Assembly (NCBI RefSeq): GCF_037031225.1
Contig: NZ_JAYEZN010000001.1
Location: 1,178,001-1,242,000, forward strand
Length of the DNA: 64,000 bases
Source: Halorientalis sp. LT38
GTDB taxonomy: Archaea > Halobacteriota > Halobacteria > Halobacteriales > Haloarculaceae
Reading direction: 5' to 3'
Every line of letters starts with the position of its first letter. Within the stretch, counting starts at the first letter, position 1. A model generated the notes under the pieces. That model saw only the letters and a list, made by a program, of their open reading frames with translations, was not told the origin of the DNA and did not search any database. The position numbers and the translations under genes were made by a program. Positions 58,923-63,958 of the stretch are shown piece after piece.

Positions 58923-60797
58923 ATGGGCGGTATCGTCGCGCTCGTCGATCGATCCGGGCAGGGGGTCGACTCCGTTGCCGTCGACTCGATGGTCGAGGCG
59001 CTCTCCCATCGCGGCCCCGACGGGAGCGACCAGTGGGTCGACGGTCCATGTGGGCTGGGCCATCTGCACCACTACACGACGCCGACGGCCGGGAGGCCCG
59101 ATCAGCCGCTCCGGAGGGACGACTGCGTCGTCGTCGCGGACGGCCGAGTCGACAATCGCCGCGAACTCGAGGAATTGCTCGATCTCGACGCCGGCGTGAC
59201 GACCGACGCCGAGTACCTGCTGGCCGCCTACCGGAAGTGGGGGACGGCGTGTCCGGAGCACGTCGTGGGCGCCTACGCGTTCGCGATCTGGGACGAAAGC
59301 AGACGACGGCTGTTCTGTGCGCGGGACCACGCCGGAATCCGGCCGTGCTACGTGGCAACCGGGGACGGACGGGTCGCCGTCGCCTCCGAGATACGAGCGC
59401 TCCGGCGACTCCCGTTCGTCTCGACGGCTCTCGACGAGATCGCGGTAGGCGACTTCCTGGTCGGAGACCCGGCCGACACGGAGCGGACGTTCTTCGAGGA
59501 CGTGACGCGCCTGCCACCGGGGCACGCGCTGGTCGCGACCGACGACGAGGTGCGCACGTGGCAGTACTGGAGCCTCGACCCGACCGTGGAGATCAGCATG
59601 GAGTCGGACGAGGCCTACGCCGCGGCGTTCAAACAGCTGTTCGAGCGGGCCGTCCAGTGTCGGTTGCGTCGCCCGCCTGAGGGACGGGTCGGGTCGACGC
59701 TGAGCGGCGGGCTCGATTCCTCCGCCATCGCCACCGTGGCCCAGCGGTTCACGCCCGCCGAGACCGGCCCGTTCCCGACGGTTTCACTTTCCTTCGAGGG
59801 CATCCCGGGCGTCGACGAGACCGCGTACGCCGAGTCTGTCCTCGAGACCGGTGACTTCGACGGCCGGTTCGTCGCGGCGGCGGACCTCCACCCTTTCCGG
59901 GACGTCGACCGTGTCCTGACCGCCCAGGAGACACCCTTCTTCGCGAACAGCCTCTTCCTGCACTGGGGGATGTACGGGACAGCCGCCGACATGGACGTCC
60001 GAGTCATGCTCGACGGATACGGCGGCGACGAGACGCTGGGTCGGGGCGTCGCGTATTTGGCCGGGCTGGCTCGCAGTGGCCAGCTCCGTCGACTCGCAGC
60101 GGAGATACCCGCGACCGCCGACAGGCGGGGAGAGTCCGTGAGGACGGTGCTCCTGAACGAGGTCGTTGCCCCGCTGGTACCGGAGCCGCTGTGGCGAGCC
60201 CGGCGACTCGTCCGTGGAGAGTCCGATCCGCTGGCGGATCGGACGTCGGTCCTCAATACCGACTTCACAGATCGGATCGGAATCCGCAAGCGACTGCAAC
60301 GACGGGAGGAACCACCGCCAAAGACTGTCCGGGACGACCACCGCTGGCTGGTGACACAGGGGCTGCTGTCTCGGGATCTGGTCGCCGCCAACAAGGCCGG
60401 GATCGCGTTCGGCATCGAGCCGCGGTTCCCGTTCCTGGATCGGCGGCTCGTGGAGTTCTGTCTGGCGCTGCCCGCGGACCAGAAGTTCCGGCGGGGGTGG
60501 GAGCGATTCGTCCTCCGCCGGGCGCTGGGCGAGTACCTGCCATCGGACGTCCGCTGGCGCGAGGACAAGGCCGACCTGCGCCCGTGTTTCCTCGAGGGAC
60601 TTCGGACACACGACGCCGAGCGACTCCGGAGTCTCGCTGGGGAGGAAGAGGAAGTAGAGACGTGGCGATACGTCGACCGCGCGGCGTTCGGGACGAACGT
60701 GGACGCCTTCCTCGACGGCCGTGACCTGAACGCCCGCAGGGCGGTCTGGCGACCCGCACTGCTGGGATCGTGGTTACGGCGGCGCCGGAACACCTGA
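58923..60797 (+). CDS. Asparagine-synthetase-like lasso-type macrocyclase
   Basis: A 624-residue homologue of asparagine synthetase B. The N-terminal glutaminase-like domain (1-210) begins MGGIVALVD, so the catalytic Cys2 of true synthetases is Gly. The synthetase domain keeps the ATP loop SGGLDSS (261-267), later LDGYGGDETL, and the conserved GIEPRFPFLDRRLVEFCL. Loss of Cys2 with an intact ATP site is what lasso cyclases (McjC type) show: they adenylate a side-chain acid and close a lactam instead of using ammonia. First gene of the cluster. Confidence 0.88.
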   Translation: MGGIVALVDRSGQGVDSVAVDSMVEALSHRGPDGSDQWVDGPCGLGHLHHYTTPTAGRPDQPLRRDDCVVVADGRVDNRRELEELLDLDAGVTTDAEYLLAAYRKWGTACPEHVVGAYAFAIWDESRRRLFCARDHAGIRPCYVATGDGRVAVASEIRALRRLPFVSTALDEIAVGDFLVGDPADTERTFFEDVTRLPPGHALVATDDEVRTWQYWSLDPTVEISMESDEAYAAAFKQLFERAVQCRLRRPPEGRVGSTLSGGLDSSAIATVAQRFTPAETGPFPTVSLSFEGIPGVDETAYAESVLETGDFDGRFVAAADLHPFRDVDRVLTAQETPFFANSLFLHWGMYGTAADMDVRVMLDGYGGDETLGRGVAYLAGLARSGQLRRLAAEIPATADRRGESVRTVLLNEVVAPLVPEPLWRARRLVRGESDPLADRTSVLNTDFTDRIGIRKRLQRREEPPPKTVRDDHRWLVTQGLLSRDLVAANKAGIAFGIEPRFPFLDRRLVEFCLALPADQKFRRGWERFVLRRALGEYLPSDVRWREDKADLRPCFLEGLRTHDAERLRSLAGEEEEVETWRYVDRAAFGTNVDAFLDGRDLNARRAVWRPALLGSWLRRRRNT

Positions 60798-60863: not shown

Positions 60864-61019
60864 GTGACAGACGCAAACGACGAATACGAACCCCCGGAAC
60901 TGGTTTCGTTCGGCTCTCTCGAGGAGATCACCGAGGGGAGCAAGGGGAAGGGTCGCGGACGCGGTCGCGGGCGTGGGCGCGGGGCGAGCAGGGGCGACGG
61001 CCTCGGTGGCGGACGGTAA
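60864..61019 (+). CDS. Lasso-type RiPP precursor with Gly/Arg-rich core
   Basis: A 51-residue peptide with a GTG start. The leader (1-24) carries the lasso signature Tyr-x-x-Pro-x-Leu, a Gly, then Thr at the penultimate position: YEPPELVSFGSLEEITE. The predicted core (25-51) starts with Gly-Ser-Lys-Gly-Lys-Gly, then five Arg-Gly pairs, Ala-Ser-Arg-Gly-Asp and a Gly-rich end with Arg. There is no Asp or Glu at core positions 7-9; the only acid is core Asp21. Flanked by cyclase and kinase genes. Confidence 0.82.
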   Translation: MTDANDEYEPPELVSFGSLEEITEGSKGKGRGRGRGRGRGASRGDGLGGGR

Positions 61020-61035
61020 GACCGTCCCACAGTCG

Positions 61036-61932
61036 ATGGACGACGAGACGTATCGTGCGTTCGGCCTGACGCTGGAGTCTTCGATTCCACTCCCGGAACT
61101 GCCACGGACCGATATCCGGGCGGAGCCGACCGTACGGATCGAGCGGGATTCTCTCGCGTTCCCGGCGTCGGAGACGGCCTCGTATCGGGTCGCCGACGGT
61201 GGGGTCTACCTGAACTACGACGTGGGGACGTTCTTCGTCGACGAGACCACCGTCGTCGCCGATCCGATCCGGGAGCCGGACCAGCTCTTCCGTCAGTACC
61301 TGCTCGGGCGCGTGATCGGGATGGTCCTCGTCCTGCGCGGGTCCCTCTGTCTCCACGCGAGCGCCGTCGCCGTCGACGGTCGCGCCGTCCTCTTCGCGGG
61401 GCCGAGCGGGGCCGGCAAATCGACCACGGCGCTCGCGGTGGCGCTGTCCCGGGACGGCGGCTCGTTCGTCACCGACGACGTCGCGCCGATCGCCGCGGAC
61501 GCCGACCCGACGTTGCAGCCCGGGCCGCCGCTCGTCAAGTTCAGTGCCGACAACCCGCTCTGCGCCGTCGCGGATATCGATCCCGTCCTCGACGACGGGA
61601 GCGGACCCGCTCTCGGGAAACGATGGTACCGGGTCGGCGGCGAAGTCGGGAGCGAGCCCCTGCCAGTCGACCGGATCTACCTGCTCGAACCAGGAGCGCC
61701 AGTCGGCGTCGAACCGGTCACCGGTCGGGAGGCGGCGATCGAACTGCGACGCCAGTCGTTCTTCGCGTCGGATTCGGCGTTCCTGCGCGAGGCGGACTTC
61801 GAGACGGCACAGTTCCTCCAGTGCGCCGACGTCGCGGACGCCTGTCGGATGCGGCGGCTCCAGAGCGGGCGGGACCTCGACGACCTGCCAGACGTCGTCT
61901 CGGCCGTCGAATCCGATCTCGAGAGCGACTGA
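61036..61932 (+). CDS. HPr-kinase-like RiPP tailoring kinase
   Basis: A 298-residue HprK-fold protein. LHASAV (His107) and P-loop GPSGAGKST (122-130) lead to an acidic FVTDDVAPI. In some lasso pathways such kinases phosphorylate the C-terminal Ser of the core. Here the core ends in Arg, and Ser occurs only at core positions 2 and 18. Starts 16 bases after the precursor stop, so co-transcribed. Other HprK-like roles cannot be excluded. Confidence 0.83.
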   Translation: MDDETYRAFGLTLESSIPLPELPRTDIRAEPTVRIERDSLAFPASETASYRVADGGVYLNYDVGTFFVDETTVVADPIREPDQLFRQYLLGRVIGMVLVLRGSLCLHASAVAVDGRAVLFAGPSGAGKSTTALAVALSRDGGSFVTDDVAPIAADADPTLQPGPPLVKFSADNPLCAVADIDPVLDDGSGPALGKRWYRVGGEVGSEPLPVDRIYLLEPGAPVGVEPVTGREAAIELRRQSFFASDSAFLREADFETAQFLQCADVADACRMRRLQSGRDLDDLPDVVSAVESDLESD

Positions 61933-62045: not shown

Positions 62046-62387
62046 GTGACAGTACGACGCATGGACGGCCGTGATGGCGACCGTGAACGGACGCTTCCAG
62101 CCGATGCGGTCGTCCAGGCGACCGACGCGTGTCTGCACACGACCGTCGACGGCGAGGAGGTACTCCTCCAGACCGAGACCGGCGAGTACTACGGGCTCAA
62201 CGCCGTCGGCACCCGGATCTGGGAGGCCGTTCAGGAACCACGGCGCGTCGCGGACGTCGAGGAGACGATCCGGGCGGAGTTCGACGTCTCGGCCGCCGCG
62301 TGTCGCGAGGACGTCCAGGCGTTCCTGACGGACCTCCGGGAGGCACAGCTGCTCGAACTCGTCGAATCGGACGGGACGGAGACGTGA
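62046..62387 (+). CDS. PqqD-type RiPP recognition element (lasso B1)
   Basis: A 113-residue PqqD-fold protein: VVQATDACLHTTVDGEEVLL, GEYYGLNAVGTRIWEAV and a C-terminal helix. PqqD/B1 proteins bind the leader (the YxxPxL segment) and hand it to the peptidase. GTG at 62046 or ATG at 62061 may be the start. It overlaps the next gene (GTGA), as for split B1-B2 systems. Confidence 0.9.
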   Translation: MTVRRMDGRDGDRERTLPADAVVQATDACLHTTVDGEEVLLQTETGEYYGLNAVGTRIWEAVQEPRRVADVEETIRAEFDVSAAACREDVQAFLTDLREAQLLELVESDGTET

Positions 62388-62830
62388 CGGCGTCGGGTCA
62401 CGCCAGACGAGCGCGACGGCTCGCGGTCCCCACGGGGCTCTTGCTGATCGTCGCCTCGGCCGGCCTGCGGTGGATTTCGGCAACGCGGGTCCGGACACAC
62501 CTCCGACGAATGGCACGCGTCGTCGTCCTGGTGACATCCGGTTCCGTGGACGGACCGGTCGTCCGGGGTGCGGTCCGTCGGGCCGACGGCGCGATGCCGG
62601 GGCAGCGGAGTTGTCTCGCCAAATCTCTCGTCGCCGCGGCGCTCCTCGAGGCGGCCGGTCGGGACGCGACCGTCCGACTCGGCGTCGCCAGGCCGGACGA
62701 GGGATTTCAGGCCCACAGCTGGGTCGAGAGCGATGGATGGGTCGTCGTCGGCGACGACTACCGGCTCGAACAGTACGAGCCCCTGGGAACCCTGGCCGAC
62801 GTCGACGCCGCGGACTACGAATTCGAGTAG
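62384..62830 (+). CDS. Lasso-type B2 leader peptidase
   Basis: A 148-residue transglutaminase-like cysteine protease of the lasso B2 family. Cys77 (GQRSCLAKSL), His111 (FQAHSWVE) and a following Asp in VVGDD form the expected catalytic set. It removes the leader after the Thr-x site. GTG start overlaps the PqqD stop. Confidence 0.9.
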   Translation: MTASGHARRARRLAVPTGLLLIVASAGLRWISATRVRTHLRRMARVVVLVTSGSVDGPVVRGAVRRADGAMPGQRSCLAKSLVAAALLEAAGRDATVRLGVARPDEGFQAHSWVESDGWVVVGDDYRLEQYEPLGTLADVDAADYEFE

Positions 62831-62842
62831 GAGGGACCAGTC

Positions 62843-63958
62843 GTGGACACAGCAGAGTCACCGGATCCGATGTCAGTCGTTCGGGAGTGCTGTCGGCAGG
62901 CGCTCGGGACCAGCCGCGGGTCCCCGCCCGACCTCGACGATGAGTTCGCCCGGCGAACGCTTTCGGTCGCGCGCGCTCACGGCGTCGAGCCACTCGTGTC
63001 GTCGGTCCTGGCCGACTCCTCGGCGGGCGACGTCGCTGCCGTCGCGGACGAACGACGCCGGACGGCGCAGTCGAACCTCCAGGCCGTCGCCCAGGCGCGC
63101 ACCGTCGTCGACGCGTTCGCGGACCGCGGCATCGAGGCGCTCGTCTACAAGGGGCCCGTGCTCGCCGCGAGAGCCTATGGAGAGGTTGGCCGGCGAGCGT
63201 TCGACGACATCGACCTCCTCGTCGCGCCCGAGGATTTCGACGCCGCCCAGGACGTGCTCGCGTCCCGGAGATACCGCGTTGCGGAGCGCCTCGACGGCCT
63301 CCGAGAGGTCGCGTTCGCGCCGCCGGAGGGATATCACGTCGACCTCCACGCCACGCCGATCCCGCGCTACTTCCCCGGCGACCTCCCGTTCGAGGATCTC
63401 TGGGCTCGTCACGTCGACGTGGACGTCGCCGGAACGACGCTCCCCGGCCTCGCGCCGGCCGACCTGTTCGTCGTGCTGGCGATCCACGGCACCAAACACT
63501 GCTGGTATCGACTCTCCTGGATCTGTGACGTCGCGGCGCTGGCCGAGGGCGTGTCGTGGGCAACGGTCGCAGATCGGGCACGGGCGAGCAGGAGCCGCAG
63601 GATGGTCGCATCGGCGGTCGCGCTCGCCGAGGCGTGTCTCGGCGCTTCAGGGCCGCCGGCGCGCACTTTCGACGTCGAGCAGCCGGTCGCGGACCGCCTC
63701 GCGGATGCCTCGCTGGATCGCGTGCTCGACCCGGACCCAGAGCCGCCCGAGTGGGGCGACCGGATCCGCTATCAGCTGCAGGCGCTGGATAGCGCCGGTG
63801 ACAGCGCGCGCTTCCTCGGCTCGCTCGCGTTCGCGCCGACGGTCGCCGACCGGGAGTTCCTCGACCTGCCGACACCGCTGACGCCCCTGTACGCTGTCGT
63901 CCGGCCGGTTCGACTCGCGGTTCGGACGCTCCGTCGGGTCCTGTCGGGCAGTCCGTAG
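62843..63958 (+). CDS. Nucleotidyltransferase of the RiPP cluster
   Basis: A 371-residue NTase_5-type protein. KGPVLAARAYGEVGRR (103-118) then DDIDLLV (121-127) hold the metal-binding Asp pair. Such enzymes accompany kinases in some lasso clusters and further modify the phosphorylated peptide, for instance with sugar. It is 12 bases after the peptidase gene. GTG start. Target on this core is unknown. Confidence 0.85.
   Translation: MDTAESPDPMSVVRECCRQALGTSRGSPPDLDDEFARRTLSVARAHGVEPLVSSVLADSSAGDVAAVADERRRTAQSNLQAVAQARTVVDAFADRGIEALVYKGPVLAARAYGEVGRRAFDDIDLLVAPEDFDAAQDVLASRRYRVAERLDGLREVAFAPPEGYHVDLHATPIPRYFPGDLPFEDLWARHVDVDVAGTTLPGLAPADLFVVLAIHGTKHCWYRLSWICDVAALAEGVSWATVADRARASRSRRMVASAVALAEACLGASGPPARTFDVEQPVADRLADASLDRVLDPDPEPPEWGDRIRYQLQALDSAGDSARFLGSLAFAPTVADREFLDLPTPLTPLYAVVRPVRLAVRTLRRVLSGSP

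Follow-up and report, generated by a model that had tools for sequence, protein, structure and literature searches.

The gene cluster

The window, by which we mean the whole 64,000-nucleotide stretch of DNA analyzed, carries a complete lasso-type cluster of six genes (C, precursor, K, B1, B2 and N), all on the + strand (Table 1). They comprise a macrolactam synthetase C, a B1 RRE, a B2 cysteine peptidase, a YxxPxL leader with Thr at -2 and an HPrK-like kinase. The C protein has Asn_synthase and GATase domains, and the motifs SGGLDSS, DGYGGDE and REDK are all there. Residues H107, the P-loop GPSGAGKST and D147-D148 are conserved in the kinase, homologues of which occur in nearly every haloarchaeal locus. 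The B1 gene may truly start at the ATG at 62061. Cys77 and His111 of B2 are kept in 32 of 32 relatives, and this is the sole B2 gene above cut-off in the genome. PADLOC gave no match for the nucleotidyltransferase, and no transporter gene was recognized directly in the cluster. From the gene content, the locus is probably a haloarchaeal lasso-type RiPP cluster of the paeninodin/Bsf/pseudomycoidin kind, for which the ring register, cleavage site and modifications are proposed below.

Downstream of the cluster lies an exopolysaccharide-type glycan locus (L042 5601-18852) with glycosyltransferases, a Polysacc_synt flippase-like protein, a pyruvyl transferase and three sulfatases. LPP and paeninodin clusters of Bacilli are likewise often found within capsule loci (PMC13381572).

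Table 1. Genes of the cluster and segments of the precursor, numbered from the first letter of the window.
Feature	Position	Strand	Details
Lasso-type macrolactam synthetase (C)	58923..60797	+	624 aa, ATG start; NCBIfam lass_lactam_cya (NF033535) 583 bits, cut-off 525
Precursor peptide gene (A)	60864..61019	+	51 aa, GTG start; product MTDANDEYEPPELVSFGSLEEITEGSKGKGRGRGRGRGRGASRGDGLGGGR
Leader MTDANDEYEPPELVSFGSLEEITE	60864..60935	+	YxxPxL, G, T at -2; codon phase in frame
Proposed repeat-expanded spacer GSKGKGRGRGRGR (putative)	60936..60974	+	Hexamer array; variable spacing in relatives
Proposed 8-residue ring GRGASRGD, Gly14-Asp21 (putative)	60975..60998	+	Likeness to GRHFSRVDG
Proposed 6-residue tail GLGGGR (putative)	60999..61016	+	Direct reading; sister's precursor 8+7
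HPr-kinase-like peptide kinase (K)	61036..61932	+	298 aa; Hpr_kinase_C E 6e-5, HprK_rel_B E 3e-8, each below curated cut-off
PqqD-family RRE (B1)	62046..62387	+	PqqD (PF05402) E 9e-20; lasso_PqqD_Bac E 9e-20
Lasso B2 leader peptidase, transglutaminase-like	62384..62830	+	lasso_biosyn_B2 (NF033537) 74 bits, cut-off 33
Nucleotidyltransferase (N), NTP_transf_5	62843..63958	+	Pfam NTP_transf_5 E 7e-49

The precursor peptide

The precursor is not a chance reading frame, because it is flanked by the lasso-type cyclase gene and the HPrK-like kinase gene. Its translation contains every element of the lasso leader rule that the initial annotation had described, namely Y8-x-x-P11-x-L13, G17 and T23 (-2), with G25 as core residue 1; residue -1 is E24. 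The leader matches the NCBIfam model lasso_leader_L3 (NF033521) at 24.1 bits (cut-off 19). In our alignment of precursors (A1), M1, Y8, P11 and G17 are invariant columns and T23 is nearly invariant. The gene is the sole match to lasso_leader_L3 above cut-off in the 3.58-Mb genome and also the sole genome match (E 1.5e-10) to a haloarchaeal precursor profile, which was built with this sequence included. The possibility that a second precursor with Asp or Glu at positions 7-9 lies near the cluster had been raised earlier; by these two profiles there is no second precursor anywhere in the genome.

Of the 27 core residues of MTDANDEYEPPELVSFGSLEEITEGSKGKGRGRGRGRGRGASRGDGLGGGR, two are Lys and seven Arg; Asp21 is the sole acid, and R-G-R occupies positions 7-9 when the count starts from the leader Thr. 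The translation thus bears out both the absence of an acceptor at 7-9 and the polycationic character noted before. The description of this charge as extreme for a halophile was overstated, as GK/GR-rich cores or tails are present in several other haloarchaeal members. Serine occurs only at core positions 2 and 18, and the C-terminal residue is Arg; neither of the known kinase target serines (C-terminal, or core Ser3) is found. At the DNA level, the Arg-Gly run is an imperfect array of GGNCGN hexamers (60951-60983), which GSKGKGRGRGRGR overlaps.

The cyclase and its phylogeny

In its PPi-loop and catalytic-region motifs the window cyclase is like its relatives. We considered a dead cyclase and rejected it, as the main motifs are present. 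The protein deviates at nine columns where 27 haloarchaeal cyclases show at least 90% conservation. The most notable of these is residue 486 (comparison numbering), which is Val here and Glu in all 27 of the others, and the window cyclase may have an altered specificity. No close orthologue was found, the best identity being about 42%; a scan of genome contigs gave only bacterial matches of about 24-36% identity.

The cyclase tree places the window as sister to G002 (99/94), and both share a clade with G437 and cyclases of the GRHFSRVDGNSGTTGN/GRHFSRVD type (93/94). The G002 cluster has the same C-A-K gene order as the window, and its core, GTGGGDFDAFATGSP, has 15 residues (8+7) with Asp8. In a tree of concatenated B1 and B2, the window groups with G002, G437 and G390 (94.7/96), the last of which is cyclase-less. 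The window kinase was unplaced in the kinase tree.

Diverged lasso-type cyclase genes were also seen in facing pairs at two loci (L048 3579-7373 and L108 8004-11741), with two similar precursors nearby.

Haloarchaeal relatives

We surveyed 391 Halobacteria genomes. B2 is present in 31 of them; 16 have the cyclase (E <= 1e-80). Reading of the relatives' loci gave three kinds of cluster. Type I clusters have C and precursors with a K-x5-D motif (for example G420, ITRTGSGTNKVGDNTDEY). Those of the second kind, the GRHFSRVDGNSGTTGN type, have C and a precursor with a Gly/Arg/Lys-rich tail. The third kind has B1, B2, a kinase and usually a nucleotidyltransferase, without C. No relative of C (E <= 1e-20) was found genome-wide in seven of 12 cyclase-less genomes, and the other five have just Asn-synthetase homologues about 30% identical to C. 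Cores of the cyclase-less clusters have no fixed acceptor, and GK/GR, poly-Gly and Arg-rich sequences are among them. Near their end, most carry a Tyr, often as GYG, which is absent from the window core.

The window precursor is 41-42% identical to those of G002, G396 and G344, and 52% identical to two precursors of the cyclase-less G390, the most similar found. In three G390 paralogues and one precursor of G247 (an orphan), the leader is followed at once by GK/GR or poly-Gly runs that differ in length and stand ahead of a shared C-terminal motif. The three G390 paralogues lie together (L055 9733-11178), and one has 19 consecutive glycines ahead of PIGYGQ.

Several other precursors came to light in the survey. 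A near-invariant 32-residue precursor, MKEYETPSVETYGTVEEKTNWWDHDDGYGKWS, stands beside B1, B2, kinase and nucleotidyltransferase genes, with no cyclase in the loci read (L021, L022, L024, L025, L028-L030 and L032-L034 of genus g3; larger loci L052, L053, L057 and L066). It is identical or has one change across at least 10 genomes, and this conservation suggests a signal or structural role. A cyclase-less locus of G322 (L043 14726-18429) has six near-identical short leaders in an array (MTYEKPTLETYGRVESLTQ...), with differing tiny cores. In G080, an ORF resembling a precursor, its core an Asp/Trp/Gly repeat (WDWGWGDDDHDDWDWGWGDDDDDDWGR), lies just 5' of a kinase homologue (L269 9287-9487).

Spacing between leader and acceptor

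To count core positions, we started from Y+17 (the Thr(-2) rule) in 35 haloarchaeal precursors adjoining lasso-type cyclases. An acid at 7-9 is absent in 17 of the 35 (the window and 16 others). The K-x5-D acceptor is invariant in 30 other precursors. Its register is fixed and its distance from the leader is not: the Asp stands at position 9 (n=12), 10 (n=8), 11 (n=3), 12 (n=5) or 13 (n=2). The leader-to-acceptor spacing thus varies in haloarchaea, since the invariant motif itself moves between positions 9 and 13. The acceptor stays at position 8 from Thr in the G002 and GRHFSRVD types. An 8-residue ring that starts at the residue before Lys would fit all 30 K-x5-D precursors; for the first ring residue, Asn has been seen in metanodin (PMC12670498). 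The comparison of precursors beside homologous cyclases, which the initial annotation had proposed, revealed this variable spacing; it turned up no close orthologue with which to judge conservation of the Arg-Gly core.

In haloarchaea, then, the ring acid does not lie at a set distance from the leader Thr. Genome mining by the usual rule, which expects an acid 7-9 residues past Thr-x, would overlook about half of the surveyed precursors. Either the B2 cut sites are variable or the rings are larger than those known.

Proposed ring position and mechanism

A small residue and an acid at ring distance (7-9) are present within the window core, from Gly14 to Asp21, and would give an 8-residue ring. 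In this register Asp21 is ring residue 8 and the core is the 14-residue GRGASRGDGLGGGR (8+6), near the 15 residues of G002. Core residues 14-22, GRGASRGDG, are identical at six of nine positions to GRHFSRVDG, which occurs beside related cyclases. A shuffled core reaches this match in 0.11% of cases, or 0.36% with the Gly positions fixed (permutation P 0.001-0.004, post hoc). The match was found post hoc in a Gly/Arg-rich sequence, and P comes closer to 0.01-0.02 once the inspection of several relatives is taken into account. The residue at -2 of Gly14 is Gly, not Thr. B2 prefers Thr(-2) (PMC10368454), and a cut between Arg13 and Gly14 would break this preference because of the Gly at -2.

The explanation we favor, though tentatively, is a lasso cluster with a kinase, similar to that of paeninodin, whose GK/GR repeat has expanded between leader and ring. 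By analogy with characterized systems (PMC10368454, PMC8498205), the B1 RRE would bind the YxxPxL leader. A precursor Ser is probably the residue that the kinase and nucleotidyltransferase modify. The most plausible phosphorylation site would be Ser18, ring residue 5, which is common to GRHFSRVD. B2 would take off the leader, and C would close the macrolactam, most likely as an ordinary 8-residue ring, Gly14-Arg-Gly-Ala-Ser-Arg-Gly-Asp21, with GLGGGR as the tail. The segment GSKGKG(RG)n would be a low-complexity spacer that has grown by repeat duplication between leader and ring. Its removal would call for a B2 cut beyond the usual site or for a second trimming step. No isolated archaeal lasso peptide was found in the literature searched.

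The initial annotation had suggested a different cyclisation, at Asp21 or the C-terminus, or another reaction of the cyclase. Asp21 stands as the likely acceptor. Neither a different cyclisation nor another reaction is needed, because a ring start two residues past Thr fails for about half of the cyclase-linked precursors and a ring at Gly14 would be of ordinary size. The claim of another cyclisation is thereby weakened to a less likely possibility. The nucleic-acid- or membrane-binding role that the initial annotation also put forward is a conjecture.

Alternative explanations

The Arg-Gly core could itself be the real product. The cyclase would then make a non-lasso macrocycle (for example a Gly1-Asp21 lactam) or leave the peptide linear, with haloarchaeal synthetases accepting acceptors far outside 7-9. 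We regard this as rather unlikely. If true, archaea would obey a different rule for ring size or for leader cleavage.

A linear cationic peptide, cleaved from its leader and modified by the kinase in the manner of bacterial LPPs, is also unlikely as the product; the cyclase would then be vestigial or act elsewhere. The many haloarchaeal B1/B2/K/N clusters in genomes where no lasso-type cyclase was found, with their GK/GR, poly-Gly and Arg-rich cores, speak for such a peptide. It is also favored by the B1+B2 tree, which puts the window together with G390, the genome with the most similar precursors. Bacterial LPPs have the same RRE/HprK/NTP-transferase set without a cyclase and are linear as far as traced (PMC13381572). 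In the window, however, a full-length cyclase gene immediately precedes that of the precursor, in the C-A-K order of G002, the core is without the near-terminal Tyr of most cyclase-less cores, and no other precursor for the cyclase was found in the genome.

A cut after Glu24, followed by joining of Gly1 to Asp21, would give a 21-residue macrolactam, which would not be a classical threaded lasso. Thr(-2), Gly1 and Asp21 as the sole acid agree with the usual rule of cleavage, the cyclase differs at one otherwise invariant residue, and larger rings would be a trend of the family if the cut is always at Thr(-2), with acceptors already at 9-13. Still, this ring seems improbable: reviewed lasso rings have 7-9 residues (PMC8498205, PMC10368454), a change of one residue in ring size sharply cuts the yield (PMC13352647), and the main cyclase motifs are ordinary.

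Last, a recent frameshift, an assembly error or a decaying cluster is likewise improbable, and frameshift or sequencing error was rejected. Removal of one base near 60950 gives GSKGKVADAVAG, with Asp8 and partial similarity to the G002 core (as in GTGGGDFDAFATG), and within the Arg-Gly stretch alone codon phase favors the shifted frame; but 48% of synonymous back-translations also give a ring by a single indel, similarity to G002 is as high in 9% of them (P 0.09), the codon-phase differences fall short of significance (P 0.15 and 0.53), the shifted frame is stop-free into the kinase so that two indels are needed, the flanking GSKGKG and ASRGDGLGGGR favor the annotated frame, and every enzyme gene is full-length with conserved motifs.

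Comparison with known systems

The interest lies less in this single core than in how loosely leader and ring are spaced in haloarchaeal lasso-type precursors, and in the sister clusters that have no cyclase. The phosphorylated lasso clusters (paeninodin, Bsf and pseudomycoidin) resemble the window in their YxxPxL-type leader, discrete PqqD-type RRE, B2, C, HPrK-like kinase and nucleotidyltransferase (PMC10368454, PMC8498205). The window differs in being archaeal, in an acceptor at 21 rather than 7-9 from Thr, in the Gly-Lys/Gly-Arg repeat after the leader, and in having no C-terminal Ser, no Ser3 and no recognized transporter gene.

The GRHFSRVDGNSGTTGN... precursors (G396, G344 and G103) share with the window related cyclases, a similar sequence at the (in the window, proposed) ring, GRxxSRxDG, and Gly/Arg/Lys-rich stretches. 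Their ring follows directly after Thr-x, and the cationic stretch is in the tail and not before the ring.

The LPPs of Bacillota (PMC13381572) are alike in the RRE, HprK-like kinase, NTP transferase, YxxP leader and adjoining polysaccharide genes. They have no cyclase and use a signal-peptidase-like (SpI-like) leader peptidase, whereas the window has C and B2. The cyclase-less haloarchaeal clusters (G390, genus g3 and others, and the orphan precursor of G247) share the leader type and the B1/B2/K/N set with the window; they differ in that no lasso-type cyclase was found in the genome and in the near-terminal Tyr, often GYG, of most cores. These sister clusters are likely an archaeal counterpart of LPPs.
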